NCBI RefSeq assembly: GCF_001685355.1
Contig: NZ_CP016438.1
Coordinates: 6,696,001 to 6,760,000 of the forward strand
Direction of reading: 5' to 3'
Length of the DNA: 64,000 nt
Source: Streptomyces lincolnensis
GTDB taxonomy: Bacteria; Actinomycetota; Actinomycetes; Streptomycetales; Streptomycetaceae
The notes beneath the pieces are model-generated. The model searched no databases. It worked only from the letters and a program-made list of their open reading frames with translations, and was not told the origin of the DNA. The first letter of the stretch is position 1; every line of letters starts with the position of its first letter. Shown here piece after piece: positions 46,190 through 63,800 of the stretch. Made by a program: the position numbers and the translations under genes.

Positions 46190-46400
46190 GGACGGTGCTC
46201 CAGAAGTTTCGAACGAAGGTCGGAGGAAGGAATGGTCCTGGGACAAGGATAGAAGCGCCTGACGCGGCCGGACGCGCGAGTCGGCGCTGTCCTGAGGAGA
46301 CGTGCGCAGGCGGGCCGCTCACTGGGTATGTCCTACGAGATGGTGGCGCACCCGGCACGGGAACGGGGGTGCGTGGGGGATACGGGGAGGGAGACGGTGG

Positions 46401-46595
46401 ATGGGCGAATTGGATGATCTGCCCGACAGCGAGCAGCCGCCTTCCGGTCCCGCCGAACTTCCCGATCTCCTGGCACTGAACCTCGCGGACCTGCGGACCA
46501 TTCAACACCCGGTTCTCGCCGAGGTGCTGGAGGAGCTGAGGGACCGGGCGGTCGAGCCGACCGAAATGCTGTGGGGTTTCAACAACTCGTTCTGA
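46401..46595 (+). CDS. fxsA: FxsA: FxSxx-COOH-type RiPP precursor peptide
   Basis: 64 aa precursor. The leader contains LPDLLALNLADLRTIQHPVLAEVLEELRDR, typical of FxsA precursors, which are recognised by FxsB. The C-terminus reads MLWGFNNSF, ending right at the stop, so the core is the last few residues. Canonical FxsA ends F-x-S-x-x; here F-N-N-S-F shifts the Ser by one, a variant. W-G-F and F-N-N are aromatic-x-x units that could form cyclophanes. ATG 46401 is chosen because GGGAGG lies nine bases upstream; frames from 46302 lack an SD. Next gene is FxsB. Confidence 0.85.
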   Translation: MGELDDLPDSEQPPSGPAELPDLLALNLADLRTIQHPVLAEVLEELRDRAVEPTEMLWGFNNSF

Positions 46596-46729
46596 TGCCT
46601 TCTCCCGTCGGGGATGGATGGTTCCGGCCGTTCCGTCAGTCGAACAGGACACCTTCCGACGCGCGCGTTTGTGGCGCGGAGAGTGCAGGGAAGGGCGCCT
46701 TGGACGGCCGTGCACAGGGGGGTGCTCAG

Positions 46730-47974
46730 GTGTCCGACATGGTGATCGCTGGATCGACGCCAGTGCCGAGCCCTACCCCCCTTCGCCAGTTCATCGTAAA
46801 AATGTACGGAATATGTAACCTTTCGTGTCGGTATTGCTACTTATATGCCGGTCCGGATCGCACCTGGCAGGATCGTCCCGCGGCCGCGTCGCCGGTAACC
46901 CTGGAGCGCACTGCCGGTCGTATCGCCGAACACGCGGCGACACACCGCCTGCGATCGGCCTCGCTGGTCATGCATGGCGGGGAGCCCCTGCTCGCCGGAG
47001 CGCACACGCTCGCTCGGTTCGCGGCTGACGTACGGCGCGTAGTTCCCGGTTCGTGTGTCGTGCACCCGATCGTCCAGACCAATGCCACCTTGCTGACCGA
47101 GCGCCGCATCGCCGTCCTCGCTCGTCAGGGCATACGCGTGGGCATCAGCCTCGATGGCGGACGCGCCGACCACAACGCACAGCGGGTCGATCACGCAGGG
47201 CGTCCGTCATGGCCCGCCGCAGTGCGCGGCGCGAGGCTGTTGGCCGACCGGTTTCCGGAGTCGTACGCCGGCATCCTCACGGTCGTGGATCCGACGACCG
47301 ATCCCGTCGAGCTGTACGAGTCGCTCCTGGAGCTGCGCCCACCCGCCCTGGATCTGCTGCTGCCCCACGGGAACTGGTCCGCCCCGCCGCCGCATGTGGC
47401 TGCGACGCTCACGGACAGGGGAAGGGCCCTCTACGGCGACTGGCTCTGCGCGGTCTTCGACCGGTGGTGGCGAGGATCGCGGCAAGAGACCGGAGCGCGG
47501 AAAGAGACCAGAGTGCGGTTGTTCGAGGAGTGCATCGCGCTGCTGCTGGGGCTGCCCGCGGGCACGGAGTCGCTCGGGCTCGCGCCCTTTGACGCGGTCG
47601 TCGTCGAGACGGACGGTTCCATCGAGCAGGTGGATTCCCTCAAGTCCGTTGCGGCCGGCGCTTCTCGGACCGGCTTTGATGTCTTTCAGCACAGCTTCGA
47701 CGACGCGTTGCGCCACCCCGGCGTCGCCGCACGGCAGGCCGGAGCCGCCGCTCTGGGGGCGCGGTGCCGGGCATGTCCGCTGGTGTCGGTGTGCGGCGGC
47801 GGTCACTACGCCCACCGCTACCGGGCCGGGCACGGCTTCGCCAATCCCTCGGTCTACTGCGCCGACCTACAGAGGTTCATCCGGCACGTCGCCGCGAGGC
47901 TTGTCGAGGCTGCGGACGCATCGGGAGCCGCCGTGCCGGTCGGAACTCGCCTCACCCGAGGAGACTCCCGGTGA
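46730..47974 (+). CDS. fxsB: FxsB: radical SAM/SPASM cyclophane-forming maturase
   Basis: 414 aa. The radical SAM cluster motif C-x3-C-x2-C is CNLSCRYC (Cys29, 33, 36), followed by MHGGEPLL. The C-terminal SPASM-type Cys set is CRACPLVSVC, then VYC at residue 377. Predicted to join aromatic side chains to a nearby residue in FxsA, making a three-residue cyclophane. GTG 46730 has AGGGGGG seven bases upstream, so it is preferred to ATG 46739. FxsB proteins often carry a C-terminal HExxH domain; here that is a separate downstream gene (GTGA overlap). Confidence 0.9.
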   Translation: MSDMVIAGSTPVPSPTPLRQFIVKMYGICNLSCRYCYLYAGPDRTWQDRPAAASPVTLERTAGRIAEHAATHRLRSASLVMHGGEPLLAGAHTLARFAADVRRVVPGSCVVHPIVQTNATLLTERRIAVLARQGIRVGISLDGGRADHNAQRVDHAGRPSWPAAVRGARLLADRFPESYAGILTVVDPTTDPVELYESLLELRPPALDLLLPHGNWSAPPPHVAATLTDRGRALYGDWLCAVFDRWWRGSRQETGARKETRVRLFEECIALLLGLPAGTESLGLAPFDAVVVETDGSIEQVDSLKSVAAGASRTGFDVFQHSFDDALRHPGVAARQAGAAALGARCRACPLVSVCGGGHYAHRYRAGHGFANPSVYCADLQRFIRHVAARLVEAADASGAAVPVGTRLTRGDSR

Positions 47975-49464
47975 TATCGGCGGTCCTTCCCGAGGCTTCG
48001 TTGCGTGAACTGGGGCGTACGGCAGGCAGTCCCGACACGCTCGCCCTGCTTGTCCGCGATCAGCACACGCGTCGGCTGCTTCTGCTGCGAGCCGTGCTGG
48101 ATACCGTCGAGGCTGCCGATACGCGTGTCTGTCCGGAGCCTGTGCGTGCCCGTCTTCGGGAGGACTGGGCCTTGCTGGAGGCCGCGGACCGGGCGGGAGA
48201 GAGAGCCGGTGCGGGGGCGTGGCCGGGGGCGGGCATCCGGGCCTCGGCTGCTCTGGATCGGCTGCTCTACCCGCTGGTCGGGCCGTGGGCTCGGAACTGC
48301 CTGCGTTTGTTGGGGGGCGGGGTGGTGGGGGGCGACGGCGTGGTTGAAGAGGGGACGAGGCGAGTGTGGCTGCTTGAACGTGACCTCGCTCATTTCAGTG
48401 CGCTCGCGGTGGCGGCGGCTGTCCGGGCGCGGGTGCCGTTCGCGGTGCGGCTCGTGGCGCGTGACGGGGTTCTGGTCATTCCCTCGCTGGGGGTGCTGCG
48501 GACGGCCGATGCGGGGGAGGTGCCGGTCGATGTCGCCCTTCGGGGGGAGCGGATGACGTTTCGGCAGCAGGGCGCGGCAGCGGCAGACGCCTCGGTCCGC
48601 CTGAACGCGGATGGCACGTCCGCGCGGTCCGATACGCCAGCGTGGACCCCGGCGAAGGTCTTGCCTGGCCTGGTGCCCGGCGCTGAGGCCGTTCCGCTCG
48701 ACGATGCCGATCCCTACCGTGTCGCCGGCCCTCAGGCCCGTCAGCAGGACCCGAGCGGTCCCGCGAACGTCGATGGAGCGGGGTGGGCCGGGTGGCTGCG
48801 CTCCTGGACGGGTACTGCGGCACTGCTGCGGCTCGGGGGTGAGCATCGGGTGGCGGAGGCCGTGGCTGTTCTGCGGTGTGTGGTGCCGTTGGCCACGCCC
48901 GACGTCTTGACCGCACAGACGCGCAGTACCGGGAGTTGCAGTGGGACCCGGAGGGAGGCCTTCGGCGCCGTTCTCAGCAGTCTTCCGCCCAATCCGGTCG
49001 CCTTCGCCGCGACTTTGGTGCACGAGATACAGCACGCCAAACTGGCGGCATTGAGCGAGATGGTGGTGTTGCATCACGCGGGGCCGGAGGAACGGTTCTT
49101 CGCTCCTTGGCGTCCCGGGCCGAGAAGGCCGTACGAAGCTCTCCTGCATGGGGTGTACAGCCACCTCGCACTTTCGGACTTCTTCCAGCGATGCGCTCTC
49201 GCCACTGCCATGTCGCCCCTCCAGCGGGAGTTCGCATGGGACAGGCACGCGCGCCACCGGGAGCAGGTGAGAGCGGTGCTCCCGGCGATCACCGAAGTGG
49301 ATCACTTGACGCCCACGGGGCGCCTTCTGGTCGACATGCTCACCGAAGAGGGTGTGCGCATGGACGCGGACCCACCACCTGCGAAGGCCCGGGAGAACGC
49401 CCGGACGTACGTAGATCGGCTGCATCGGCAGTGGAGGCTGAAAAATGCTGCGCCAAGTGGGTGA
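47971..49464 (+). CDS. HExxH-motif peptide-modifying protein (FxsB C-terminal-type domain)
   Basis: 497 aa, GTG start overlapping the fxsB stop. The HExxH motif is HEIQH at residues 351-355, inside LVHEIQHAKLAALSEM. Proteins of this domain are placed with aKG-HExxH peptide beta-hydroxylases of RiPP clusters, so it may hydroxylate the FxsA core rather than act as a protease. The first 250 residues include LWLLERDLAHFSALA-like helices. Splitting it from FxsB is unusual. Confidence 0.85.
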   Translation: MISAVLPEASLRELGRTAGSPDTLALLVRDQHTRRLLLLRAVLDTVEAADTRVCPEPVRARLREDWALLEAADRAGERAGAGAWPGAGIRASAALDRLLYPLVGPWARNCLRLLGGGVVGGDGVVEEGTRRVWLLERDLAHFSALAVAAAVRARVPFAVRLVARDGVLVIPSLGVLRTADAGEVPVDVALRGERMTFRQQGAAAADASVRLNADGTSARSDTPAWTPAKVLPGLVPGAEAVPLDDADPYRVAGPQARQQDPSGPANVDGAGWAGWLRSWTGTAALLRLGGEHRVAEAVAVLRCVVPLATPDVLTAQTRSTGSCSGTRREAFGAVLSSLPPNPVAFAATLVHEIQHAKLAALSEMVVLHHAGPEERFFAPWRPGPRRPYEALLHGVYSHLALSDFFQRCALATAMSPLQREFAWDRHARHREQVRAVLPAITEVDHLTPTGRLLVDMLTEEGVRMDADPPPAKARENARTYVDRLHRQWRLKNAAPSG

Positions 49465-49671
49465 TGGGGGGTGCCCTCACGTTTCTTTGATCGTTCCCGC
49501 GCGCATGCAAGATCACGAACAATGACGCGGGTGGACGGACGGGAGGGCTGTGGAGGCGCGGGCAGGAGCACCGCGCAACTCCACGGGTGCTGAAAGCGCC
49601 CTGTTCCGGCACTCTGCCCGCCTCTACACTCACGCACGGGCACCGAGTGCCTCGACGGGGGAGGTCGATGC

Positions 49672-52600
49672 ATGTCTGGCATCCGCACGTCAGTTGCGCC
49701 GCCTGACGGGCGTGCGACCAGAGAGACTGTCACGATCAGTTTCGCCGGGTTCAACAGGGCTTGGGCGGCTTGGATCGGGGACCGATTGGAGCGGCGCGGT
49801 CGCCGTGTCGTGTACGCGCGGTGGGACGCTCCGCCGGAAGTTCCGCTCATCGATCTCCTGGAGTCCCTGAAGCTTGCTCAGGGGCGGATTCTGATCGTCG
49901 TCAGCGAGTGGTATTTCCAGCTGGGGCCGCGTACGCACGAGGAGTGGAACAACGCGCTCCGGCAGGTGGTGGCACCCGACCCGGAGAAGTTCGCGGCAGT
50001 GTCCGTCACTACGGCTCCGGTGCCGACGGCCACCGCTGTCCTTGCTGCCTTCGACCTGATCAATGTGGGGGCTGAGGAGGCCGAGCGGCGTCTGCTGGAC
50101 CGGCTCGACATGCTTGGTGAACCTGTGCTGGAGCCGGTTGGTGGCGTGCGGCGCGGACCACGTTTTCCGGCGGCCATGCCGGAGGTCTGGGGCCGGGTCC
50201 CTCGGCGCAACACTCGGTTCACGGGCCGTGAATCGCTGTTGAACGACGCTTATCACCTGTTGCAGAGCGCCGAACCGGGAGCCGGAGTCCTGACCCTCCA
50301 TGGGATGCCAGGAGTGGGGAAGACCCAGCTCGGGGCGGAGTATGTGTATCGCTTCGGGTCGGAATACGACGTCGTGTGGTGGGTCAATTCGGAGACGCCG
50401 GCCACGTATCGGCGTCGTCTCGCCGAGCTTGCGCCGAGGCTCGGTTTATCGACAGGGGCCGATTACGGCGAGCGGCTGCGTGCGGTCGCTGACGCGCTGC
50501 GTCGAGGTGAGCCTTATGCCCGGTGGTTGCTGATCCTGGACGGTGCGGATGAACCGGGGCAGATCTCGAACCTTGTTCCTACCGGACCGGGGAACGTCCT
50601 GATCACCTCGCGGAATCCGGATTGGCGGCAGTACAACAGTCAGTTGATGGAGGTGCCGGTCTACTTGCGCGATGAGTCTGTGGCCTTCATTCGTCGGAGG
50701 GCTCCGCGATTGACGGATTTGGACGCCGGTCAACTGGCCGAGGCGTTGGAGGATCTGCCGCTGCTTCTGGACCAGACGGCCGGCTGGCTGGACGACTCCG
50801 AATTGTCGGTGCCGGACTACATCGCAATGCTGGAGGGTGGCATCGACCGAAGCATGGTGAGGGTTTCAGAGGACTCTCCTACGGCGTTCCAGCAGGCCTG
50901 GTCGATCCTTTTGAGGAAGCTGAGGCAGACCGTTCCGGAGTCGGTCGACTTGTTGAGGTTGTGTACGTTCTTTGCGCCTGGCTTTGTTCCTGTTGGGCTG
51001 CTGAGGAAGTTGCCGACGGAGGAACTGCCCGAGCGGCTTGCTGGATTGCTTGGTGATCCCTCCCTGTGGATCAGGGCGATAAATCAGTTGCGCCAGTATT
51101 CGGTGGTGCGCCTGGAGTCGCATGAGACGGTCACTGATGAGGATGCCTCGACTGGGCAATCTTTCTATTTGCATCGCATGGTGCATCAGATCGTTCATCA
51201 GGGCATGTCGGATGAGGACAGCCGGGTTTTTGTTGATGTCGTACGGCGGGCGCTGGTGGCTGCTGATCCCCGGAGTCCCCAGGACACTCGGTCGTGGGAC
51301 AAGTACGCGGAGATCGTGCCGCACCTCAAGTATGCGGATGTACTCCAGAGTGAGGATCGTTCAGTTCAGCGACTGGTTCTCAATTGCCTTTCCTACATGT
51401 GCCAGTCGGGCGAGTATGCGGCAGGACTCAAACTCGGTGGACTTGCTATGAAGGCCTGGCGGGCCCTACTGAGTGATGGGCATCCAAATTTCTGGGAATT
51501 GGCTCATCACTACGCCAACCTTCTGCGGGCAGTGGGTGACTACCGGCGTGCGGAGGAGGTAGGGCGTTCGGTTGTCGAATCCCTGCGGAGGCATGGTAGG
51601 GATCAAGGCCTGGAGGTAATGCGCGCAACCAATGGTCTGGCGGCTGACCTGCGTGGTCTTGCTCGCTATAAGGAAGCTCTGGAGCTCTCCGAGTGGCTCG
51701 TCCCGGCATGGCACGACCTTCTTGGTGAATCGGATCGCGTGACCCTGCGTGCGCAGAACAACCTGGCGGTTTCGTTGAGGCTTCTGGGGCGCTATGAAGA
51801 AGCCTTGGCGGTGGATCGGGAAACTCTGCGACTGCGTACGGAGGGTTTCTCAGCGAGAGATTCAGATACTCTGTATTCGGCAACCTTCTATGCCCTTGAT
51901 TTGCGTCTTCTGGGGCGCTATGGCGCAGCCGAGTCCATCCAGAGGGATGCCCTGAGTGAGTTGCGCAGAGTCCTTGGACCTGACCGGACCTTGACGTTGT
52001 TCGGAGAATATAACTTGGCGTTGTGCCTCTACCGCGGTGGTGGCCGGAGTCAAGCTGGCCCGTTGCTTGCCCGGGTGTTAGAACGTGGGGAGCGCGTACA
52101 CGGGGAAACACACCCGTGGACGTTGATCTTTGCCGCAGCTCTCGCCTGCTTCACTCGCGAGCACGGCGATATCGACCAGGCACGGGCGGTCAGCGAGTCC
52201 GTGCTTGCGCGTTATGAGTCGGCGCACTCGGAAGGGCATCCGTATGTCGCCGGAAGCCAGTCCAACCATTCCTTGATCCTCTGCAATGTCGGAGAGCGGG
52301 ACCAGGCACGCACAACGGCCGAACGAGCCCTCACTGACATGACTGCAACAGTCGGAGAGGGTCATCCCTGGACCCTCGGCTGTGCCATCAACGCATCCTT
52401 CATCCGAAACCTCTCCGGTGACCCCGAAGCCGCCGCAGACCTCAGCAAGAGCACCATCGCCGGAGCCACCGAGACACTGGGGCGCACCCACCCTCTGACC
52501 CTCTCCGCTCGCATCGCTCTCGCAGCCGATCTCCGAGACCTGCGGGGTCGAAAGCAGGCCGAAAAAATCGAACAGGAAGCGTTGGCGGACCTGTCCGAGA

Positions 52601-52683
52601 CTCTTGGTCCTCAGCATGTCCACACGGTCGCTGCCCGTTCCCGTAAGCGCCCCTACTGGGACTTCGAGCCTTTGACTGTGTGA
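49672..52683 (+). CDS. fxsT: FxsT1: TIR-like / NB-ARC / TPR protein
   Basis: 1003 aa NLR-like protein. TIR-like domain: about residues 20-145 (TISFAGFNRAWAAWIGDRLERRG, HEEWNNAL, with a possible catalytic Glu in the latter). NB-ARC ATPase: P-loop GMPGVGKT (211-218), Walker B RWLLILDGADE (284-294), sensor GNVLITSRN (307-315), then LEDLPLLLDQTAGWL. TPR array from about 560 to 980, ending YWDFEPLTV. ATG 49672 has GGGGGAGG seven bases upstream. Base use is lower in GC than neighbours (30 of 60 at 51121-51180). Belongs to the FxSxx-COOH system TPR protein family. Confidence 0.9.
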   Translation: MSGIRTSVAPPDGRATRETVTISFAGFNRAWAAWIGDRLERRGRRVVYARWDAPPEVPLIDLLESLKLAQGRILIVVSEWYFQLGPRTHEEWNNALRQVVAPDPEKFAAVSVTTAPVPTATAVLAAFDLINVGAEEAERRLLDRLDMLGEPVLEPVGGVRRGPRFPAAMPEVWGRVPRRNTRFTGRESLLNDAYHLLQSAEPGAGVLTLHGMPGVGKTQLGAEYVYRFGSEYDVVWWVNSETPATYRRRLAELAPRLGLSTGADYGERLRAVADALRRGEPYARWLLILDGADEPGQISNLVPTGPGNVLITSRNPDWRQYNSQLMEVPVYLRDESVAFIRRRAPRLTDLDAGQLAEALEDLPLLLDQTAGWLDDSELSVPDYIAMLEGGIDRSMVRVSEDSPTAFQQAWSILLRKLRQTVPESVDLLRLCTFFAPGFVPVGLLRKLPTEELPERLAGLLGDPSLWIRAINQLRQYSVVRLESHETVTDEDASTGQSFYLHRMVHQIVHQGMSDEDSRVFVDVVRRALVAADPRSPQDTRSWDKYAEIVPHLKYADVLQSEDRSVQRLVLNCLSYMCQSGEYAAGLKLGGLAMKAWRALLSDGHPNFWELAHHYANLLRAVGDYRRAEEVGRSVVESLRRHGRDQGLEVMRATNGLAADLRGLARYKEALELSEWLVPAWHDLLGESDRVTLRAQNNLAVSLRLLGRYEEALAVDRETLRLRTEGFSARDSDTLYSATFYALDLRLLGRYGAAESIQRDALSELRRVLGPDRTLTLFGEYNLALCLYRGGGRSQAGPLLARVLERGERVHGETHPWTLIFAAALACFTREHGDIDQARAVSESVLARYESAHSEGHPYVAGSQSNHSLILCNVGERDQARTTAERALTDMTATVGEGHPWTLGCAINASFIRNLSGDPEAAADLSKSTIAGATETLGRTHPLTLSARIALAADLRDLRGRKQAEKIEQEALADLSETLGPQHVHTVAARSRKRPYWDFEPLTV

Positions 52684-52787
52684 AAGGCGCGGTGTCGGTT
52701 CCCGGTGCGCATGATCTCTCGCGCGCCGGGGAATGACCCAGTTCTCTCAACTGCCGCACGCTATACGAGAGTTAGTCAGGGGGACGT

Positions 52788-53198
52788 GTGGTGATTTTGG
52801 TGGGACCCGTTCCGGAGGGGGCCGACGGGCCCATTCCGGTCGTAGTCGAAGCAGATCTGGTCGGAGAGTCGCTCGACGACCTGGATGCCATCTACGGCGA
52901 CGAGAAGACCAGAGACGGCGGCTCCGCCCGGCGAGTCGTCCAGGTCGCTCAAGACGCCTATACCGAGGGCCTTGACCTGGCTCGGCGCTGTGCGGCCCAA
53001 GCCGTGCGGCGGTTCGGGGAGATGGCGGAGGAACTGCGGCCGGACGAGATCGAGATGCAGTTGGCCATCAAGGTCGACGCCGGCGTGGTGGCGTTGGTCA
53101 GGAGCGGAGCAGAGGCTCAGCTCCAGGTCACCTTCAGGTGGCGGACCGCGGGTGCCTCCGGGGCGTTATCGGGCAGCGGAGGGGGAAACGACTCGTGA
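52788..53198 (+). CDS. Trypco1 (CU044_2847-like) conflict-system protein
   Basis: 136 aa. VVVEADLVGES, RRVVQVAQDAYTEGLDLARRC and DEIEMQLAIKVDAGVVALVRSG, then EAQLQVTFRWR, match the trypsin-co-occurring domain 1 pattern. This small domain links effector proteases to NTPase switches in predicted bacterial conflict systems. GTG 52788 (or 52791) follows AGGGGGA. Its stop overlaps the ATPase start (GTGA at 53195-53198). Confidence 0.82.
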   Translation: MVILVGPVPEGADGPIPVVVEADLVGESLDDLDAIYGDEKTRDGGSARRVVQVAQDAYTEGLDLARRCAAQAVRRFGEMAEELRPDEIEMQLAIKVDAGVVALVRSGAEAQLQVTFRWRTAGASGALSGSGGGNDS

Positions 53199-54139
53199 GT
53201 CGTGCGGCGGAAGGCGTGCACATCCTGCCCTACAGCCGGGTCGTGGGGCAGGACGATCTCAAGCTGGCACTGGAACTCAACTACGTGTCGCCCCCCATCG
53301 GGGGTGTGCTCATGGCGGGAGCGCGGGGCACCGCCAAATCCACTCTCGTACGGGCTTTCGCCCTCATGGTGCATGAGGAACTGCCCGTCACGCTTCCCAT
53401 CAACGCCACCGACGACCGGGTGGTCGGTGGCTGGGAACTCGACGCTCTGATGCGGGGCGAACCCCGGCCGCAACCGGGGCTGTTGGAGGAGGCCGCGGAG
53501 AAGGGGCTGCTCTACATCGACGAGGTGAACCTCCTTGACGACCACCTGGTCAACATCATCCTCGACGTCGTCTCGACAGGGGTGCTGTCGGTGCAGCGGG
53601 AGGGGCTGGCCACCGCCAAGCATTTGTCCTTCGGGCTGGTGGGGACGATGAATCCTGAAGAAGGCGGTCTTCGGCCGCAGTTGCTGGACCGGTTCGGGCT
53701 CATGGTCGCCGCGAGTCAGCTGGACACGGACGCCCGTCATCGGACGATCCGGACCGTGCTCGACTTCGAGGGGGAGCTGACACGGAAGGAGTCCGTCTGG
53801 CTGGAGCAGGCGGCGCGGGACGACAACGCGCGGCGGGACCAGCTGGAGCAGGCCAGAGACCGGGTGTCCGGCACGCCGATCCCCGAAGACGTGGTGCGGC
53901 TGTGCGCCCGGGCCGCCGAGCGCGTCGCGGCCGTCGGTCAGCGTGGCGAGATCGTGGCGACGCTGGCGGCTCGCGCGTTGGCCGCGTTGGAGGGCGCGGA
54001 CGAGGTGGTGCCCGGCCACCTGCTGCGGGTTCTGCCCATGGCCTTTCGGCATCGTCGGCCGGAGACTGCCCATGGGGGAACGTTCGAATGGGGGCCCGAG
54101 GACGAGTCCCGCGTTGAGGACCTCTTCGAGCCGGCCTGA
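53195..54139 (+). CDS. ChlI/MoxR-like AAA+ ATPase
   Basis: 314 aa, GTG start overlapping the Trypco1 stop, with GGAGGGGG ahead. Walker A GARGTAKST (42-50), Walker B LLYIDEVNLL (105-114), sensor GTMNPEEGG (150-158), Arg finger LDRFG (164-168). Mg-chelatase ChlI-like: SPPIGGVLMAGARGTAKST, DDHLVNIILDV. A true chelatase is unlikely, since no tetrapyrrole genes are nearby. It should form a motor with the next vWA protein. Confidence 0.92.
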   Translation: MSRAAEGVHILPYSRVVGQDDLKLALELNYVSPPIGGVLMAGARGTAKSTLVRAFALMVHEELPVTLPINATDDRVVGGWELDALMRGEPRPQPGLLEEAAEKGLLYIDEVNLLDDHLVNIILDVVSTGVLSVQREGLATAKHLSFGLVGTMNPEEGGLRPQLLDRFGLMVAASQLDTDARHRTIRTVLDFEGELTRKESVWLEQAARDDNARRDQLEQARDRVSGTPIPEDVVRLCARAAERVAAVGQRGEIVATLAARALAALEGADEVVPGHLLRVLPMAFRHRRPETAHGGTFEWGPEDESRVEDLFEPA

Positions 54140-54145
54140 GCCGCC

Positions 54146-56068
54146 ATGTCCACCGAGCCGCCCCATGGGGCCGACATGCCTGCCGAGAATGTGCCGTCGA
54201 CGGAAGTCGAGGAGCCCGACGAACTCGCTGTGAGGCTGTGCCGTGCCCTCGTCTGTGCCGCCGTCGACCCAGCGCTGTCCGGAGTGCTGCTCTTCGACCT
54301 GGAACCGCAGTTGCTCGACCCGGTGGCGCGTCTCTTCGCGCGGATACTGACCGGCGATCCTCACTCTCCCGGGCCGCCGGTCATGCTGAGTGCCGCCAGC
54401 CGGGACGAGGACCTGTGGACACGCCCCGTGCTCCAACGGGAGGACGGCGGCATCTCGTTCCGCATGGAGCCAGGCCCGCTGATCGAGACGGACGGGCGGT
54501 CCGGGCCGCCCTCGCTGGTCGTCGTGCCGGACCTGACCAGGCTCAGCGTCGCCGGGATGCGGGCCGCGGTCCAACTGCTGGGCGCCGACGTGACCGTGGT
54601 GGAGTACGGGGGGCTGAGCCATCGCGCTCGACCGCGGGCTCGTTGGCTGGCCGCCTGCCGATCCGCCGACGCGGGACGTCCCACGGGTCATCTACTCGAC
54701 AGGTTCGCCCTTCGTCTGCCTACCTGCGGTCTCCGGCTGCCAACGGCCGATCACCTGCTCGGGATGCTTCCACCGTCCTGGCTGGACATCGCACGCGACG
54801 CCCAGGAGGCGTTGGTGCCGACCGCTGCCGTCAGCGACGAAGCCCTGGACCGCGTACACGAGTTGCTCGGGCCGGAGAGCAATATGCGCAGGGAGCTCTC
54901 CCTTGCACGACTCGCCCGTGCCCTGGCCACGCTCGATGGTGAGGGGACGGCCACCAGTGAGCACTGTGCGGCGGCGGCCCGGCTGATGGGGCTTGCCGTT
55001 GCGGAGGGGGCCGGGCGTGCGGAACCGACCGGCGGTGCCTCGGGCTCCGCGTCGCGGTCGCCCCACCCGAGCAACCGTCCGTCGGAAGGCATGGGAGAAC
55101 GGCGGCATACAGGACAGGACATTCCCGGTGCCGCTGAAACCGGGCAGCCGCTGCTGGAGACCGAGCCGGCCGAAGGGGTCGGAGCGGGGCGTGGCGGCGT
55201 TCAGACCGTTCTCGCCACTCCGTATCCGGAGGACGAGGCCGAGGCGTTGCGGGACTTCGCTCCGTTGCGCAGCCCTTGGCAGCGTACGGCCGGGTCGGCC
55301 TCCCTGCGCGGGGTGGTGATCGGGACGCGGCGGGCCACGGACCTGAGCGACATCGCCCATGTGCGTACCGTGCGGGAGGCCGCCGTGCACCAGCGCATCC
55401 GGCGGACAGAGCAGTTCACGGTCTCGCCCGTCGACCTGCACAGCCATGTCCGTGCCAGTTCCCCGGAACACATGCTCGTACTGCTTCTCGACCACACCTG
55501 TCGGGGCGGTGACTGGGACTGGCAGGACACGCTCACGCCGTTCTTGGAATGGGCGTACACCAGACGCGCCGCAGTCCACATCATCGAGGTGGGGAGTGCG
55601 GAGACCGGCAATGAACTGCGTGCCGAGTCCTTCGCGGCACGCAGTGTCCTCGATCCCAGGATCCTGCCCGCGCTGTACCGGCCGGTGGGGCGGGCGAGCC
55701 CGCTCGCGGACGGTGTGGAGCAGGCGGTCCAGGCACTGCGTAGGTCCTTCCGGCAGCACGGCAACAGCCTCACCGAGGCATGGCTGGTCGTGGTGACGGA
55801 CGGCAGGGGCAATGTGCCACTGAGGGCTAGCCGCACAGGGAGGTTGAGGAGTCCGGTGGGGACCGAGGGCGTGGAGGACACCCTGAAGGCCGCCGCGGGT
55901 GTCAGCGCCATGGACCGGACGCGGCTGCGGGTCGCCGTGATCGACGCGGGGCGGGAGCCGTACGGGAGCTTGCCGTTCTCGCTCGCGGAGGCGCTGGGCG
56001 GCGTGGTGCTGGAAGGGCCGTCGGCGCGCGTCCGGACGCGCGGGGGAGGCGGTGCCGGTGAGCGGTGA
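54146..56068 (+). CDS. ChlD-like pseudo-AAA and vWA protein
   Basis: 640 aa. N-terminal degenerate AAA domain (residues 30-280) with no Walker A, but with RARWLAACRSADAGRPTGHLLDRFALRLP and a helical lid, LSLARLARALATLDGEGTATSEHCAAAARLM. Linker 290-400 is Pro/Gly-rich. vWA domain about 440-600: HMLVLLLDHTCRGG with a partly changed MIDAS (D-x-T rather than D-x-S-x-S), and TDGRGNVPL at 551-559. Mirrors ChlD, the partner of ChlI, pairing with the ATPase just upstream (7-base gap). Confidence 0.88.
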   Translation: MSTEPPHGADMPAENVPSTEVEEPDELAVRLCRALVCAAVDPALSGVLLFDLEPQLLDPVARLFARILTGDPHSPGPPVMLSAASRDEDLWTRPVLQREDGGISFRMEPGPLIETDGRSGPPSLVVVPDLTRLSVAGMRAAVQLLGADVTVVEYGGLSHRARPRARWLAACRSADAGRPTGHLLDRFALRLPTCGLRLPTADHLLGMLPPSWLDIARDAQEALVPTAAVSDEALDRVHELLGPESNMRRELSLARLARALATLDGEGTATSEHCAAAARLMGLAVAEGAGRAEPTGGASGSASRSPHPSNRPSEGMGERRHTGQDIPGAAETGQPLLETEPAEGVGAGRGGVQTVLATPYPEDEAEALRDFAPLRSPWQRTAGSASLRGVVIGTRRATDLSDIAHVRTVREAAVHQRIRRTEQFTVSPVDLHSHVRASSPEHMLVLLLDHTCRGGDWDWQDTLTPFLEWAYTRRAAVHIIEVGSAETGNELRAESFAARSVLDPRILPALYRPVGRASPLADGVEQAVQALRRSFRQHGNSLTEAWLVVVTDGRGNVPLRASRTGRLRSPVGTEGVEDTLKAAAGVSAMDRTRLRVAVIDAGREPYGSLPFSLAEALGGVVLEGPSARVRTRGGGGAGER

Positions 56069-57380
56069 GCCGCCGCGTGCCGCCCGCTGGCTCACGGGCA
56101 CCGGCACCGCGATACGGCGGGCCGCGTTCCCCGCGTTGCAGTCGGCCGCCAGGCGAGAATCCGCCGCCGTACTCCACTTACGCCGCCCGTCCGGGCCGCC
56201 CTCGGGAACGGGCAGCGGTCCAGGGCGGCCGTACGAGCGCCTGGAGGACGGTTGTGCCGTGCTGCGGGTGGTCCGGGCCGTGGGCGCGGGCGGGTACGAC
56301 GGGTACCAGCTCCAGGGAGCCTGTGGCGACCTCACGGTCACCTGCCGGACCGGACCGACCCGGCTCATGGCGCCCGCCGTCAGTCTGGGCATGCTCCAGG
56401 AGAAGGGCGAGTTCCCGTCCGAGACCCTGCGAGCGATCCAGCACTGGTCGGCGAACCAGGGCGAACTCGCCGAGTGGATCAACCGAATACGCCAACGGCA
56501 CGGCGAAGGACTGCGCCTCATCGTGTGGGACGACACCGGATTCGAGCTGCCCTGGGAACTGTTCTGGGTGCCCGCCGACGAACAGCACGGATTGGGCGGC
56601 GGGTTGCTGGGCGCCCTGCTCGTCATGGCTCGCTGGACCACCGTCCATGGTGAGGACGAGGGGTTGCCGCGCGAGACCGGCCCCTGCCGCGGCCGGGTCC
56701 TCGCCTACCTTCACGAGGACATGACCGATGACGGCAGCGTCTTCTCGCCGTACGACCACGCGGTGCACGACACGATGACACCGTTCCTCCAGGCGCTGGA
56801 CCTTCCCATGCCCGACGATCGCACCGGGCTCGTCTACATGGGGTGTCATGGCACATACGGCGAGGTCGTCATGCGACTGACGCTCGGAGACCGGACGTGG
56901 GCAGAGTTCAACACCCGGGACATGCACGTGCTGCGCGAGGACCGCTCGCTGGTCTGCCTCAACGCCTGTCACTCGGGCCGCTTCGTGCCCAACCACGTCC
57001 AGGGCGAGGAGGCGCTGCGCGGATTCGCCGAACTCTTCCTGCGCAAAGGCGCGGGTGGCTGCATCGTCACAGCCGGCAAGGTCGGGGACCAGGAGGCGCG
57101 GGCGTTGGTGCGCCGCCTCCTCAAGGAGGTCGCGGCCCGCCCCGACCTCCCCATCACCGAGACACTGCGGGACTTCCGTGCGCGCGCGGTCCACGACTTC
57201 GGCACACTGGCGGCCATCCCCACGACGCGCAACGATGACGGACAGGTCGACAAAGTCGGACAGAAAAGGGTCCTGCGGCTGCTTTACGCGTTCATGTTCC
57301 ACTACTACGGGCATCCGCGCACCACTCTGCGGCTCGTCGCCGGCGAGGAGCACAGTGCCGGGGGAGGGGACCCATGGTGA
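56058..57380 (+). CDS. CHAT-domain caspase-like protease
   Basis: 440 aa. CHAT domain from about 150 to 400. Catalytic His264 is in GLVYMGCHGTYGE and Cys304 in LVCLNACHSGRF, with the normal 40-residue spacing. The N-terminal 145 residues are an unknown domain (GDLTVTCRTGPTRLMAPAVS). Start GTG 56058 lies eight bases after GGAGG; GTG 56052 is possible. It overlaps the ChlD-like stop by 11 bases and the next ATG by 7 bases, so its synthesis is coupled to both. Probable effector. Confidence 0.9.
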   Translation: MSGEPPRAARWLTGTGTAIRRAAFPALQSAARRESAAVLHLRRPSGPPSGTGSGPGRPYERLEDGCAVLRVVRAVGAGGYDGYQLQGACGDLTVTCRTGPTRLMAPAVSLGMLQEKGEFPSETLRAIQHWSANQGELAEWINRIRQRHGEGLRLIVWDDTGFELPWELFWVPADEQHGLGGGLLGALLVMARWTTVHGEDEGLPRETGPCRGRVLAYLHEDMTDDGSVFSPYDHAVHDTMTPFLQALDLPMPDDRTGLVYMGCHGTYGEVVMRLTLGDRTWAEFNTRDMHVLREDRSLVCLNACHSGRFVPNHVQGEEALRGFAELFLRKGAGGCIVTAGKVGDQEARALVRRLLKEVAARPDLPITETLRDFRARAVHDFGTLAAIPTTRNDDGQVDKVGQKRVLRLLYAFMFHYYGHPRTTLRLVAGEEHSAGGGDPW

Positions 57381-60300
57381 ACCTCGACGAGCACCCGCTC
57401 CTCATCGAACCGGTCGTGGCCTGGCCACGGGTCGCCGAGACGGAATGCGACTACCTCGTCACCGTCGATCTGCGCGGCCCGCTCCCGGAGGGCTCGGACC
57501 CCGAACGGGTGTGGCCCTACCCGGAGGAGGAGTTCACCTTCACCGTCGCCCTCGACGGTTCCCCGTACTTCGTGTGTACCGTCCTCGACGAGCCCAGTGT
57601 CGTCCTGCACCGCTTCGGCGGCACCTACGGCCCCGCCCATTTCAAGGTCTCCACGGGGCGGGCCACCGGCCACGGCGCCCTGTGGCTCACGGTCAGCAAC
57701 CAGTGGGGCGTGCCCGTCCGTAAGGCCGAACTGCGGTCTGAGGTAAGGGAACGCGAGCCGGGGCAGGCACCGGCGGCCCGACTGGCCGAGGTGATGCGAC
57801 AACGAGCCTCGTCGGTACGGCCGTCGGAGCGGACGGGTGACATCCCGTGGAGTCAGGAGCCGACGACAGGGACGCGAGTCACTGACATCCGGTCTACGAC
57901 AACACCCGGCGTAGACAAGCCATCAAGTCCGACGCAACGGCGACCGCGCCTCGGCCGGCAGACGATCACCATCAGCTTCACCCCCTTCGACCAGGACTGG
58001 GCCGACTGGATCGGCCACCGCCTGGAACAACGTGGGCACCGGGTCGTGCTCCAGAGGTGGGACCCACCGCCGGGCGCTTCTTTGGAGGAGTCGCTGCGCG
58101 ACCTGCTCCTCGCCCCGGGCCCGGTTCTGTTGCTCCTCAGTGACCAGTACCTCCTGTCCGGCGCGCACACCGAAGGGGAGTGGGACGCGGCCTTGCGCGA
58201 GGTACTGATTCCTGAAGCCGAGCGAGTCGCTGTGGTGATGGTGGCTCCTTCGCAGCAGTCGACATACGGCCTTGACATCAGCAGCCTGTACGACGTCAGC
58301 GCCGATGAGGCCGAACGCCGACTCCTGGGCCGACTCGCGTTGTCCGCCGAACCCGAACCGCGCGCCACCACCGGCGCCGTCGACGAGCCGCCCTTCCCGG
58401 TGCACACGCTTCGGGTGTGGGGCAGGATCCCGGAACGCAACGAGCGGTTCACCGGCCGGGTCGCCTTGCTGAACACGGCGTACGAGCGACTTCAACGCGA
58501 GAGCAGGGTCACTCTGTGCGGCCTGTCGGGCGTCGGCAAAACGCAGCTGGCCGCCGAATACGCCTATCGTTTCGCGTACGGATACCACGTCGTCTGGTGG
58601 ATCAATGCGGGCAGCCGCGCCGCCTTCCGGCAGGGCCTCGCCGACCTGGCGCCGGCGCTGGGACTGTCGACCGGTACCGGCCACGGTGAGCGATTCCGCG
58701 CGGTCCGCGAGGCGCTGCGCAGAGGGGAGCCGTATGAGCGCTGGTTGCTGATCCTGGACGGTGCGGACGATCCGGATCAGGTCCGGGACCTCGTACCGAA
58801 CGGACCGGGCCATGTGCTCATCACGTCCTGCAACCAGGACTGGGGCGATCACAACAGCGCGCTGGTCCAGGTAGCCGCCTACGATCGTGCCGAGTCGGTG
58901 GACTTCATCCGCCGGCGTGCACCACGGCTGACCGATGATGACGCCTGCCAACTCGCGGAGGCTCTGGCGGACCTGCCGCTGGTTCTCGACCAGACGGCCG
59001 GGTGGCTGGACGAGTCGGGCATGTCCGTGGCGGAGTATCTGGAACTCCTTGCCAGGGACTCCGTCACGGACGACCTCGTGGTGTCCTCCGATTTCCCCAT
59101 GACGTTCCGGGCGGCCTGGGCGGTACTGCTGGAGAGGCTGCGGGCGGGTTGTCCGGACTCCGTGCTGCTGCTGCGGTTGTGCACGTTCTTCGCACCTGAC
59201 GCCGTGCCTCTGCGGTTGCTGCGGGAGACGCCGGTCGACGGTCTGCCGCCTGCCGTGGCCCAGTTGCTCACGGATCCCGGGCGGTGGAGCGAAGCTGTAC
59301 AGCAACTGCGCACGTACTCGGTGGTCCGCATTGAGAATCCGGCGCAGGGCTCCTCAGGTGACGTCCTGGCCATGCACCGGATGGTGCACCAGACCGTCCG
59401 GGACGACATGTCTGAAGAGGAGAAGTGGGAACTCGCTGATGTGGCCTGGCGAGCACTGGTGGCTGCCGATCCCGGTAACCCGAACGAGGCCGGAACGTGG
59501 TCGCGTTACGCCGAGTTGGTCCCGCACCTGGAGTACACGGACGTGCTGTTCCGCGATGCCGAGGCAGCCCAGCAACTGGTCTTCAACTGCCTGCGGTACC
59601 TCTACGTTTCGGGCGAGTACGAGACGGGCATCCGGCTGGCCGAGCAGACCATGTCCGTCTGGCAGCAACTTCGGGACGGGAACGCGGACCTGCTCTGGGA
59701 TCTTGGGCATCACTACGCCAACCTGCTGCGCGTCGTGGGCGACTACCGGAACAGCGAGGCTGTGAGCCGAGCGGCGGTGGAGCAGTTCCGCTCGGTGGGC
59801 GGGGTGGGAGACAGCCGGTACCTGCGCGCTGCCAGCGGTCTCGCCGCTGATCTGCGAGCGTTGGGTCGTTTCGAGGAGGCGCTCGATCTGTCGCGGGAGG
59901 TCCATGAGAGCTATCGAGTGCTTCGTGGTGAACTACATGAGGACACCTTGGCGGCCGTGAACAACGTGGCTGTTTCACTCAGGCTGCTCGGCCGCTATGG
60001 CGAAGCTGCCGAGATCAACCAGCGTGTGTTCCAGGCCCGCGAGCGGGTGTTGGGGGCCGACCACTTCTGGACCCTGCTTTCAGAGGTCCACTGGGCGACC
60101 GATCTACGGCTCATGGGCCGCTACGAGGAAGCCCAACATCGGCAGAGGGCCAACGTGGGCAAGTACCGGGAGGCATTGGGGGACAACCACCCCTATTCCT
60201 TCCAAGCGCTCTACAACCTGGCGCAATGCGAGTACCGGACCGGCGACACCGTGAGTGCCGGAGAGCGGTTCGCCACGGTACTGGCCAGGTGCGAAAGGCT

Positions 60301-60769
60301 TCTCGGCAAGGACGACCCTCTTACCCTCATGTTCGCGGTCGCGCGCTGCTGTTACGCACGTGAGCACGGCGATGTCGATCACGCCCGTCGGCTGAGTGAG
60401 GCCGTCGTGGACAGGTACGAGCGCCGACTCGGCTCCGCACACCCGTACTCGGCGGGAGCGCGGGCCAACCACGCCCTCATCCTCCGCACCGTCGGCGAGC
60501 ACAGGCAGGCGCGCGCATTGGGGGAACGGGCACTCGCCGACATGACACAGGCCGTGGGGGCGGCTCACCCCTGGACGCTCGGCTGTGCCGTGAACGTCGT
60601 CGCCAGCAGCCCTGACCGTGCTGTCGTAGCCGAACTCGGCCGGGAGACCGTAGCGCGGGCCACTGAGTGCCTCGGTGGCGATCATCGCCTCACCCGCGTC
60701 GCGCGGGCCGCGCTCGACGAGGACAACGGCCGCCGCATCTACTGGGACTTCGAACCGCAGACCACCTGA
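57374..60769 (+). CDS. fxsT: FxsT2: beta-domain / TIR-like / NB-ARC / TPR protein
   Basis: 1131 aa. A beta-rich N-terminal domain (12-120: EPVVAWPRVAETECDYLVTVDLR, VVLHRFGGTYGPAHFKV) is absent from FxsT1. Then a 60-residue linker, TIR-like domain (195-285, TISFTPFDQDWADWIGHRLEQRG, TEGEWDAAL), NB-ARC with GLSGVGKT (383-390) and RWLLILDGADD, and TPRs from about 690. Ends YWDFEPQTT, like FxsT1. ATG 57374 overlaps the CHAT stop and has GGGGGAGGGG. Base use is normal for the host (42 of 60 GC at 59341-59400). Confidence 0.9.
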   Translation: MVNLDEHPLLIEPVVAWPRVAETECDYLVTVDLRGPLPEGSDPERVWPYPEEEFTFTVALDGSPYFVCTVLDEPSVVLHRFGGTYGPAHFKVSTGRATGHGALWLTVSNQWGVPVRKAELRSEVREREPGQAPAARLAEVMRQRASSVRPSERTGDIPWSQEPTTGTRVTDIRSTTTPGVDKPSSPTQRRPRLGRQTITISFTPFDQDWADWIGHRLEQRGHRVVLQRWDPPPGASLEESLRDLLLAPGPVLLLLSDQYLLSGAHTEGEWDAALREVLIPEAERVAVVMVAPSQQSTYGLDISSLYDVSADEAERRLLGRLALSAEPEPRATTGAVDEPPFPVHTLRVWGRIPERNERFTGRVALLNTAYERLQRESRVTLCGLSGVGKTQLAAEYAYRFAYGYHVVWWINAGSRAAFRQGLADLAPALGLSTGTGHGERFRAVREALRRGEPYERWLLILDGADDPDQVRDLVPNGPGHVLITSCNQDWGDHNSALVQVAAYDRAESVDFIRRRAPRLTDDDACQLAEALADLPLVLDQTAGWLDESGMSVAEYLELLARDSVTDDLVVSSDFPMTFRAAWAVLLERLRAGCPDSVLLLRLCTFFAPDAVPLRLLRETPVDGLPPAVAQLLTDPGRWSEAVQQLRTYSVVRIENPAQGSSGDVLAMHRMVHQTVRDDMSEEEKWELADVAWRALVAADPGNPNEAGTWSRYAELVPHLEYTDVLFRDAEAAQQLVFNCLRYLYVSGEYETGIRLAEQTMSVWQQLRDGNADLLWDLGHHYANLLRVVGDYRNSEAVSRAAVEQFRSVGGVGDSRYLRAASGLAADLRALGRFEEALDLSREVHESYRVLRGELHEDTLAAVNNVAVSLRLLGRYGEAAEINQRVFQARERVLGADHFWTLLSEVHWATDLRLMGRYEEAQHRQRANVGKYREALGDNHPYSFQALYNLAQCEYRTGDTVSAGERFATVLARCERLLGKDDPLTLMFAVARCCYAREHGDVDHARRLSEAVVDRYERRLGSAHPYSAGARANHALILRTVGEHRQARALGERALADMTQAVGAAHPWTLGCAVNVVASSPDRAVVAELGRETVARATECLGGDHRLTRVARAALDEDNGRRIYWDFEPQTT

Positions 60770-60780
60770 CACGACACGAC

Positions 60781-60845: not shown

Positions 60846-63800
60846 TCACGCCTCGAACACCTCGCGCACCAGCTGCTCCTGCTCCGCCTGGTGCCGCTTC
60901 GCGGAACCGACGGCCGGGGACGAGCTGTGCGGGCGGGAGATGCGGCGCAGGCGCTCGCCGTGGGGGACCTCCGCGCCGACCGCCAGGTCGAGGTGGTCGA
61001 TGAGGTTGAGGGCGATGAACGGCCAGGCGCCCTGGTTGGCCGGCTCCTCCTGGGCCCACAGGTACTTCTCGGCGTTCGGGTACTTGGCGATCTCGGCCTG
61101 GACCTCGGCACCCGGGAGGGGGTACAGGCGCTCCAGGCGGATGATCGCCGTGTCCGTGACGCCGCGCTTCTTCCGCTCGGCGTCGAGGTCGTAGTAGACC
61201 TTGCCGGCCGTGAAGACGACCTTCTTGACCGCGGCCGGGTCGACCGAAGCGTCGCCGATGACCGGGCGGAACTGGCCGGTGGTGAACTCGTCCGCCGAGG
61301 ACGCCGCGGCCTTCAGACGCAGCATCGACTTCGGGGTGAAGACGATCAGCGGCTTGTGGTGCGGGTTGTGCACCTGCCAGCGCAGCAGGTGGAAGTAGTT
61401 CGACGGCGAGGTCGGCGTCGCGACCGTCATGTTGTTCTGGGCGCAGAGCTGGAGGAAGCGCTCCGGGCGGGCCGAGGAGTGGTCCGGGCCCTGGCCCTCG
61501 TAGCCGTGCGGCAGGAGCAGGACGACGCCGGAGGTCTGGGACCACTTCTGCTCGGCCGACGAGATGAACTCGTCCACGACCGTCTGGGCGCCGTTGACGA
61601 AGTCGCCGAACTGGGCCTCCCACATCACCAGCGCGTCGGGACGCGCCAGCGAGTAGCCGTACTCGAAGCCCATGACCGCGTACTCGGAGAGGAGGGAGTT
61701 GTAGACGTTGTAACGCGCCTGCTCCTCCGAGAGGTACATCAGCGGCGTGAACTCCTCGCCCGTCTCACGGTCGATGATCACCGCGTGGCGCTGGCCGAAC
61801 GTACCGCGCTGGGAGTCCTGGCCGGACAGCCGGACCGGGACGCCCTCCAGCAGGAGGGAGCCGACCGCGAGGGTCTCGCCCATGCCCCAGTCGATCGTGC
61901 CGTCCTCGACCATCGACGCCCGGCGCTGGAGCTGCGGCAGCAGACGCGGGTGGACGGTGATGTGGTCGGGGACGTTGACCTGGGACTCGGCGATCCGCTT
62001 GACGACCTCCGCGGTGACCGCGGTGTTCACGGCGACCGGGAACTCGGCCTGCGGGTCGGACGGCTCGGCCGACGCCGGCTGGGAGGTGGCCTCGCGGACC
62101 TCCGTGAAGACCTTCTCCAGCTGGCCCTGGTAGTCCTGGAGAGCCTGCTCGGCCTCTTCCAGGGTGATGTCGCCGCGACCGATGAGGGACTCGGTGTAGA
62201 GCTTGCGCACCGAGCGCTTCTTGTCGATCAGGTCGTACATCAGCGGCTGGGTGAAGGCCGGGTTGTCCGACTCGTTGTGACCGCGGCGGCGGTAGCAGAT
62301 GAGGTCGATCACCACGTCCTTGTTGAACGCCTGGCGGAACTCGAAGGCCAGCCGGGCAACGCGGACGACCGCCTCGGGGTCGTCGCCGTTCACGTGGAAG
62401 ATCGGGGCCTCGATCATGCGGGCCACGTCGGTCGAGTACATGGAGGAGCGCGAGGACTCGGGCGCCGCCGTGAAGCCGACCTGGTTGTTGATGACCACGT
62501 GGACCGTGCCGCCGGTGCGGTAGCCGCGCAGCTGCGACATGTTCAGCGTCTCCGCGACCACGCCCTGGCCCGCGAAGGCCGCGTCGCCGTGCAGCGCCAC
62601 CGGCAGGACCGTGAAGTCCGTGCCGCCCTTGTTGATGACGTCCTGCTTGGCGCGGACGACACCCTCCAGGACCGGGTCGACCGCCTCCAGGTGGGAGGGG
62701 TTGGCGGCCAGCGAGACCTTGATCTGCTCGCCGTCCAGACCGGTGAACACGCCCTCGGCGCCCATGTGGTACTTCACGTCGCCGGAGCCGTGCATCGACT
62801 TCGGGTCGAGGTTGCCCTCGAACTCGCGGAAGATCTGGGCGTACGACTTGCCGACGATGTTCGCCAGGACGTTCAGCCGGCCGCGGTGGGCCATGCCGAT
62901 GACGACCTCGTCGAGGCGGGACTCCGCCGCGCTGTCGATGACCGCGTCCAGCAGCGGGATGACCGACTCGCCGCCTTCGAGCGAGAAGCGCTTCTGGCCT
63001 ACGTACTTCGTCTGGAGGAAGGTCTCGAAGGCCTCCGCCGCGTTCAGGCGGCGCAGGATGCGCAGCTGCTCCTCGCGCTCCGGCTTGGTGTGCGCGCGCT
63101 CGATGCGGTCCTGGATCCACTTGCGCTGCTTGGGGTCCTGGATGTGCATGAACTCGACGCCGGTGGTGCGGCAGTACGAGTCGCGCAGCACGCCGAGGAT
63201 GTCGCGCAGCTTCATCAGGGACTTGCCGGCGAAGCCGCCGACGGCGAACTCGCGCTCCAGGTCCCACAGCGTCAGACCGTGCTCGGTGATGTCGAGGTCG
63301 GGGTGCTTGCGCTGGCGGTACTCCAGCGGGTCGGTGTCGGCCATGACGTGGCCGCGGACCCGGTAGGAGTGGATCAGCTCGAAGACGCGCGCGGCCTTGG
63401 TGACGTCGTCGTCGTGCGAGGCGTCGATGTCCTTGAGCCAGCGGACCGGCTCGTAGGGGATGCGCAGGGCCTCGAAGATGTCGTCGTAGAAGCCGCCCTC
63501 GCCGAGGAGGAGGTTCGCGACGATCCGCAGGAACTCGCCGGAGGCGGCACCCTGGATGACCCGGTGGTCGTAGGTCGACGTGAGCGTCATGACCTTCGAG
63601 ATGCCGAGCTTGTTGAGCGTGTCCTGGCTGGTGCCCTGGAACTCCGCCGGGTAGTCCATCGAGCCGACGCCCATGATGACCGACTGGCCGGGCATCAGAC
63701 GCGGCACCGAGTGGACGGTGCCGAGGCCGCCGGGGTTGGTCAGGGAGACCGTCACACCGGTGAAGTCGTCCATGCCCAGCTTGCCGTCGCGGGCGCGGCG

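Follow-up and report, generated by a model that had tools for sequence, protein, structure and literature searches.

A nine-gene Streptomyces block pairing an FxSxx-type peptide and receptor set with an apparently undescribed CHAT/chelatase-like module

A 64,000-nucleotide stretch of Streptomyces lincolnensis contig NZ_CP016438.1 (hereafter, the window) carries at positions 46401-60769 a block of nine genes, all on the plus strand. A first-pass annotation had assigned these genes to an FxSxx-COOH peptide precursor (FxsA), a radical SAM/SPASM maturase (FxsB), an HExxH enzyme, two NLR-like receptors (FxsT1 and FxsT2), a Trypco1 protein, an AAA ATPase (ChlI), a von Willebrand factor A (vWA) protein (ChlD) and a CHAT protease. 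Searches with curated profile models (TIGR/NCBIfam and Pfam) confirmed the families (Table 1). The four gene overlaps that it had listed are all seen in the coordinates: 4 bases at FxsB/HExxH, 4 at Trypco1/ChlI, 11 at ChlD/CHAT (17 if an earlier GTG start is used) and 7 at CHAT/FxsT2. On sequence grounds, the block consists of two separable modules rather than one indivisible system. The first comprises FxsA, FxsB, the HExxH enzyme and FxsT1, and the second comprises Trypco1, ChlI, ChlD/vWA and CHAT, together with a gene that begins with an Ig-like carrier domain and whose cargo here is a second FxsT. The block is real and conserved; half of it has already been predicted, and half is apparently undescribed.

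Table 1. Features of the block and of its chromosomal site, in window coordinates.
Feature	Position	Strand	Evidence
FxsA precursor, 64 aa	46401..46595	+	TIGR04268 46.7 bits (cut-off 28); core F60-N-N-S-F64 at 46578-46592
FxsB radical SAM/SPASM maturase	46733..47974	+	TIGR04269 416 bits (cut-off 370); CNLSCRYC at residue 28
aKG-HExxH-type peptide hydroxylase family protein	47971..49464	+	TIGR04267 143 bits (cut-off 40); HEIQH at residue 351 (49021-49035)
FxsT1: TIR_2, NB-ARC, TPR	49672..52683	+	NF040586 810 bits (cut-off 300); Pfam domains; Walker A at residue 211
Trypco1 protein, 136 aa	52788..53198	+	PF19493 53.9 bits (cut-off 24.6)
ChlI-like AAA+ ATPase	53195..54139	+	AAA_5, AAA_lid_2; Walker A GARGTAKS at residue 42; TIGR02442 270 bits (below cut-off)
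ChlD/vWA-like protein without Walker A	54146..56068	+	TIGR02442 66 bits, TIGR02031 50 bits (both below cut-off); alignment
CHAT protease (predicted)	56058..57380	+	PF12770 33.3 bits (cut-off 24); His264 at 56847-56849, Cys304 at 56967-56969; predicted fold
Ig-like carrier domain (FxsT2 residues 1-125)	57374..57748	+	Signature HRFGGTYG; alignments; model pLDDT 85.6; no Pfam/NCBIfam match
FxsT2: carrier domain, TIR_2, NB-ARC-like, TPR	57374..60769	+	NF040586 776 bits (cut-off 300)
kgd-like gene, constant right edge of site	60846..63992	-	Matches in 149/150 Streptomyces genomes
Small open reading frame, left edge of site in most mapped genomes	46010..46246	-	Mapped loci

Recurrence of the block beside kgd

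A CHAT search of genome contigs returned 14 Streptomyces loci, two of them (L008 and L011) truncated where the contig stops. In all 12 of the others the complete set of nine genes is present and its order is unchanged, with FxsT2 adjoining kgd. Because this order is kept, a chance assembly of the nine genes can be rejected. Among 392 sampled Streptomyces genomes, CHAT was found in 20 and FxsB, counted at E 1e-110 or better, in 113. FxsB is present in 19 of the 20 CHAT genomes; in 18 it is no more than about 10 kb away from CHAT, and the linkage that had been proposed as a refutation test for the block is therefore upheld. The two exceptions are G028, in which FxsB and CHAT are on separate short contigs, and G049, which has no FxsB match.

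In a sample of 150 genomes, CHAT occurs in eight and adjoins kgd in six; the block of G068 lies elsewhere, and G049 carries only CHAT and its neighbour, in both chromosome ends. In G068 (L087/L088), one FxsT stands between two FxsB genes. We also examined 40 further kgd sites without CHAT from the 150 genomes (L024-L063), picked mainly for long contigs and closeness of kgd. VMAP-type systems with FxsT, accompanied by FxsB, HExxH or both, occupy 19 of these sites, and 15 are empty; the other six comprise one VMAP system without FxsB, two sites with an HExxH-like piece only, one with other genes and two with short unassigned inserts. For two of the VMAP-type systems, Pfam scans identified trypsin and VMAP-C (L045 and L058) and Trypco1 (L058). 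The gap between the small open reading frame and kgd (window 46247-60845) is a fixed Streptomyces site that is empty or hosts AAA-vWA, peptide and receptor systems that come and go.

The surrounding genome is a single contig of 10.3 Mb, and the nearest named relative found was S. lincolnensis L4, with a CHAT protein that is 99% identical. Across this genome, five FxsT, two FxsB and four VMAP-C matches exceed their cut-offs; such matches lie at 1.78, 3.31, 6.75 and 7.61 Mb, indicating several such systems in one genome.

In the upstream DNA of relatives, a Trypco1-VMAP/trypsin-MoxR-vWA/TPR set lies directly before FxsA in nine of the 12 uncut loci and in G118 and G744, and in these 11 relatives VMAP and CHAT modules flank one peptide and receptor core. 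Only the CHAT side is present in the window, L001, L002, L003, G014 and G109, while G070 keeps a vWA/TPR gene with no VMAP or MoxR matches. Conversely, G040 keeps the VMAP side, and its CHAT side has decayed to the last 796 bases of FxsT2. Because both modules coexist in the 11 relatives, we dropped the idea that the CHAT module replaces the VMAP module. On a tree of 51 FxsB proteins, CHAT presence switches 13 times in the best tree, and at least five of these changes are forced by well-supported branches. Given these repeated changes and the existence of one-sided and two-sided loci, the CHAT side behaves like a cassette. A tblastn search found no remnants of the CHAT module in 20 of 20 CHAT-less loci; G040 holds the one clear remnant. 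Three pairs were checked for deletion by recombination between FxsT1 and FxsT2, and in G279 an FxsT1-like body is followed by the FxsT2-kgd spacer, an arrangement that would fit such a deletion and also an ancestral state without the cassette.

Synonymous divergence (dS) and the ratio of nonsynonymous to synonymous divergence (dN/dS) were estimated for one close genome pair, the window and its nearest relative, L001. The dS values are 0.35 for FxsT1, 0.26 for FxsT2, 0.19 for FxsB, 0.14 for HExxH, 0.13 for Trypco1 and 0.10 for kgd, compared with 0.03-0.05 for ChlI, ChlD and CHAT; FxsA is at 0.07, from only four changes. This pattern suggests that receptor and maturase alleles have been exchanged around a steady core. 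Positive selection on the receptors was considered and rejected, as their dN/dS values are 0.13 and 0.18 and the high dS indicates allele exchange. FxsT1, with the highest dS to L001, also has a G+C content (0.617) lower than that of its neighbours.

Components of the two modules

CHAT Cys304, singled out by the first-pass annotation, is present in the sequence together with His264. The His/Cys pair is kept in 34 of 34 alignment rows, at least five of which repeat a genome; a wider alignment of 20 rows keeps it throughout. An AlphaFold model (predicted local distance difference test, pLDDT, 80.2) has a caspase-like fold, with Csx29 and separase as its nearest structures. On its Pfam match, His/Cys pair and fold, CHAT is a predicted protease. 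The ChlI Walker A motif is conserved in 19 of 19 rows, and ChlD has none. Both proteins, named after chelatase subunits, score far below the magnesium/cobalt chelatase cut-offs (for ChlI, 270 against 779 bits and 224 against 467; for ChlD, 66 against 779 and 50 against 500). By BLASTP, neither ChlI nor ChlD is significantly similar to the MoxR and vWA-TPR proteins of the VMAP-type system in L045 (E 0.72 and 0.074).

FxsT1 and FxsT2 are 49% identical, and FxsT2 has about 190 additional N-terminal residues, of which residues 1-125 form a separate domain. This carrier domain has no match in Pfam or NCBIfam. Its model, built from 20 sequences, is a beta-sandwich whose structural matches are generic Ig-like folds. 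In Streptomyces it is confined to the same 20 of 392 genomes as CHAT, and in 21 of 21 places it lies at most 51 bp behind CHAT; it was found in three of 394 genomes sampled over the class. Of 176 proteins, 164 carry an HRFGG signature between residues 44 and 90, and the other 12 lack the strict signature. In protein searches, the domain is N-terminal to TIR-NB-ARC-TPR, caspase, trypsin-EAD2, VMAP-C, STAND-like and lipoxygenase regions. Further cargoes include GlgX, phospholipase C, trypsin with WD40, PF13289 and PF09286 (which we take to be SIR2-like and a kumamolisin pro-domain, respectively) and others. Judged from these sequences, the carrier domain is reused in front of many unrelated protein regions.

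Outside the Streptomyces Fxs loci, CHAT is known to precede the carrier only where the DNA was read. Nonomuraea gerenzanensis encodes Trypco1, ChlI, ChlD, CHAT and a carrier fused to GlgX, and a megaplasmid of Streptomyces NBC_01483 has a CHAT module with a carrier-trypsin-EAD2 gene; neither has Fxs genes nearby. In G595, from another family, ChlI, ChlD and CHAT are followed by a carrier joined to an unassigned region. At both ends of the G049 chromosome (L089, a terminal repeat), a CHAT gene with a shortened start adjoins a carrier-trypsin-EAD2 gene, and ChlI and ChlD were not found beside it. A GlgX-like protein behind a carrier (L211:13017-15515) carries Ala in place of the Asp of the aligned GlgX structure, presumably the nucleophile. 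That the GlgX cargo is a dead enzyme does not hold in general: N. gerenzanensis has Ala, but three of four relatives have Asp.

The FxsT2 ATPase is seen by Pfam only as sub-threshold AAA matches, and its Walker Lys is kept in all alignment rows. The C-terminal tails of FxsT1 and FxsT2 (52650-52680 and 60737-60766) keep a W-x-F motif, mostly as WDFEP, with both W and F present in all complete rows of three sets (21, 21 and 15, some rows shared); other FxsT paralogues of the source genome end differently. We considered whether the tail might mimic the FxsA core, which also has W-x-F near its C-terminus, and rejected this because W-x-F persists in systems without FxsB and differs in the other paralogues.

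FxsA, annotated at first as an FxSxx-COOH RiPP (ribosomally synthesized and post-translationally modified peptide), exceeds the family cut-off, yet it ends in FNNSF, with Asn where the Ser that names the family is expected; we class it as an FxN variant. Asn occupies the third core place in 25 of 25 CHAT-linked cores versus 12 of 26 cores without CHAT (Fisher p 1.1e-5, relatedness uncontrolled). This survey was limited to FxsB loci at roughly 61% identity or above (52 of the 113 FxsB genomes together with named loci), less seven loci without a recognisable FxsA, G198, whose core is unclear, and G068. A strict code relating core to CHAT was not upheld, and we retain it as a lead. The curated model places FxsB in a cyclophane-forming class, and Phe-to-Asn and Phe-to-Ser links two residues apart are reported in the sections of PMC11002830 drawn on here; the cross-link made in FxsA is therefore likely to be F60-N62. 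The HExxH protein exceeds its family cut-off and has the expected motif, and it is a predicted hydroxylase. Enzymes of this type hydroxylate RiPP precursors, and some cleave them oxidatively, according to the part of PMC12636437 consulted; by contrast, Kaur et al. 2020 (PMC7159879), in the sections used here, named HExxH proteins peptidases. In L010, L014 and L039, the HExxH match is in two pieces with extra DNA between them.

Relation to known systems, function and significance

In the sections of Kaur, Burroughs, Iyer and Aravind 2020 drawn on here (PMC7159879), FxSxx processing, a radical SAM enzyme and a TIR-AP-ATPase-TPR gene are described beside VMAP-MoxR-vWA cores, the FxSxx type is called strictly tied to VMAP systems, standalone peptide-processing systems are noted too, and four AAA-vWA subsystems are listed. 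The link among FxSxx peptides, radical SAM and HExxH enzymes, TIR-AP-ATPase-TPR receptors and MoxR-vWA pairs had thus already been predicted there. Mentions of chelatases in those sections are limited to a sub-clade of MoxR, the known Mg-chelatase and an association with GUN4. The consulted parts of PMC8195603 add the iSTAND2 and TERNS3 MoxR-vWA systems, and those of PMC10907252 a CHAT-TIR target near Trypco2. We did not find the Trypco1-ChlI-ChlD/vWA-CHAT half in the open-licence PMC literature, whose figures and supplements were excluded and may show the combination.

VMAP-ternary systems, as described in the same sections of PMC7159879, share with the block an FxsA-like peptide, radical SAM/SPASM and HExxH enzymes, a separate TIR-AP-ATPase-TPR gene, Trypco1 and an AAA-vWA pair, and they are the systems that fill 19 of the 40 CHAT-less kgd sites. 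The block differs in that the nine proteins include no VMAP-C and no trypsin (nor is there a VMAP match between the left-edge reading frame and FxsA), CHAT stands in the protease place, and the effector is on a separate carrier domain. Plain VMAP-ternary membership was rejected on the lack of VMAP-C and on chelatase-like AAA and vWA proteins that do not align with the VMAP-type pair. The earlier pointer to the vWA-MoxR/VMAP class thus fails for the nine genes, though that class flanks the same core in the 11 relatives. Craspase (Csx29/TPR-CHAT) and separase provide the closest folds; the block differs from them in having no CRISPR component among its nine genes and in having an AAA-vWA pair and a carrier-bearing receptor as neighbours. 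The iSTAND2 and TERNS3 systems, in the available parts of PMC8195603, likewise combine an AAA-vWA pair with a third component that varies and with effectors encoded by separate genes, but that third component is an inactive STAND or TERNS3 domain with effector-associated domain (EAD) or bDLD adaptors, rather than CHAT with a beta-sandwich carrier. EADs, as presented there, resemble the carrier as constant adaptors fused to many effectors. The carrier differs in its N-terminal position, its tie to CHAT and its lack of a match to the Pfam EAD models, whose EAD2 hits fall only in C-terminal parts of P0121 and of the L212 protein. A Pfam scan of the nine proteins gave no match to the domains of CATRA caspase systems. 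In Apaf-1/caspase-9 and in plant TIR-NB-ARC receptors, an NB-ARC switch has a front region that recruits a caspase-like protease or carries a TIR domain; for the block, gene adjacency is what hints at a comparable recruitment.

The sequence itself shows which components are present, the order in which they lie, that they recur and that the carrier is reused; from these we infer a function and a mechanism. FxsB is likely to cross-link Phe60 to Asn62 of FxsA, and the HExxH enzyme is likely to hydroxylate the same peptide. There is no transporter among the nine genes by curated-model and Pfam scans, and the modified peptide therefore probably remains in the cell, where the TPRs of the two FxsT proteins would likely recognise it. 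The ChlI ring and its ChlD/vWA partner likely set a threshold, remodelling the complex with ATP, and the carrier domain likely docks FxsT2 onto CHAT. Once triggered, CHAT would cleave its target, and NAD+ would likely be consumed by the TIR domains. We lean, by a little, toward the two modules acting together as an infection-triggered, protease-driven switch that kills or halts the cell (abortive infection). The sensor-switch-protease chain first proposed for the block fits its parts, although as two separable modules rather than as one system.

Several observations weigh against this abortive-infection switch. Each module is found alone: in 94 of the 113 FxsB genomes CHAT gave no match, so the peptide set can do without the CHAT module, and CHAT modules occur without the peptide set in Nonomuraea and on the megaplasmid. 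The evidence pointing to docking of the carrier on CHAT is their adjacency. A tree-based test of independent pairs for the Asn core was underpowered, with about one pair in the same direction, none opposite and four without difference. The vWA metal motif of ChlD, as we presume it to be defined, seems partly degenerate, and the candidate TIR catalytic Glu (our assignment) is kept in 30/33, 19/21 and 13/15 rows of three sets that share some rows, and is thus not universal. The dN/dS values of the nine genes (0.07-0.36) give no sign of positive selection in the one pair compared. No strong anti-phage model of PADLOC-DB 2.0.0 matched the nine proteins, which gave weak superfamily matches only (pVip to FxsB, RtcR-like to ChlI and PbeC to FxsT1). 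CHAT had no match in a phage collection and two in a plasmid collection, with no sign of ordinary mobility.

The independence of the modules, the changes of CHAT presence on the FxsB tree and the variety of other systems at the site would also suit two unrelated systems that share a hotspot beside kgd, with an order that is inherited rather than functional. We consider this unlikely, because FxsT2 physically joins the carrier domain of one module to the receptor body of the other, because reading frames in the block overlap, and because FxsB stays near CHAT in 18 of 20 genomes, in one of them (G068) away from kgd. It is likewise improbable that the block is a developmental or metabolic regulator. 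Its fixed place beside a 2-oxoglutarate gene (kgd) and an HExxH enzyme of an alpha-ketoglutarate (aKG)-dependent family would favour such a role, as would the TTA codons in FxsB (one), FxsT1 (two), Trypco1 (one) and CHAT (one), which in Streptomyces suggest late-growth control and may here be bldA-dependent. However, the block is restricted, by CHAT, to 20 of 392 genomes, has been repeatedly gained or lost, and has exchanged alleles, with receptor dS several-fold above that of ChlI, ChlD and CHAT in the one close pair. Loss of the VMAP half from a VMAP-ternary system, leaving a degenerate remainder that does not function as a whole, would explain the upstream VMAP-MoxR-vWA genes of the 11 relatives, their absence from the window and the five other CHAT-side loci, the lone vWA-TPR gene of G070 and the decay of the other half in G040. 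It is nonetheless very improbable, given nine open frames, kept motifs, dN/dS below 0.4 throughout and the fact that CHAT and ChlI are the least changed of the genes when the window is compared with L001. Least probable of all is a RiPP natural-product cluster with an exported peptide, in which FxsT and CHAT would serve control or self-protection, for although FxsA, FxsB and HExxH are RiPP families, the same scans of the nine genes turned up neither a transporter nor any family of dedicated leader peptidases, and many relatives of the peptide set sit with AAA-vWA and receptor genes.

Returning to a switch formed by both modules, we tentatively extend it, with somewhat less than even confidence, to an additional kind of AAA-vWA conflict system, one based on chelatase-like ATPases and CHAT. 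Its single Ig-like carrier would plug any one of roughly a dozen effectors (including NLR, caspase, trypsin, VMAP-C, STAND, SIR2-like, phospholipase and even a glycogen enzyme) into the same protease switch. The Streptomyces cargo would be a receptor that a peptide-guarded system also uses, forming a bacterial apoptosome that reads a cross-linked peptide, framed in some species by two different protease switches around one receptor core. If true, this would add a new type to the AAA-vWA conflict systems and name a domain that plugs effectors into a caspase-like protease. The finding also qualifies the claim, in the sections of PMC7159879 used here, of a strict tie between FxSxx peptides and VMAP systems. 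An intracellular modified peptide would be tied to NLR-like receptors, making the role of FxsA directly testable. Species with both protease modules, one or neither at a single site are natural knock-outs.

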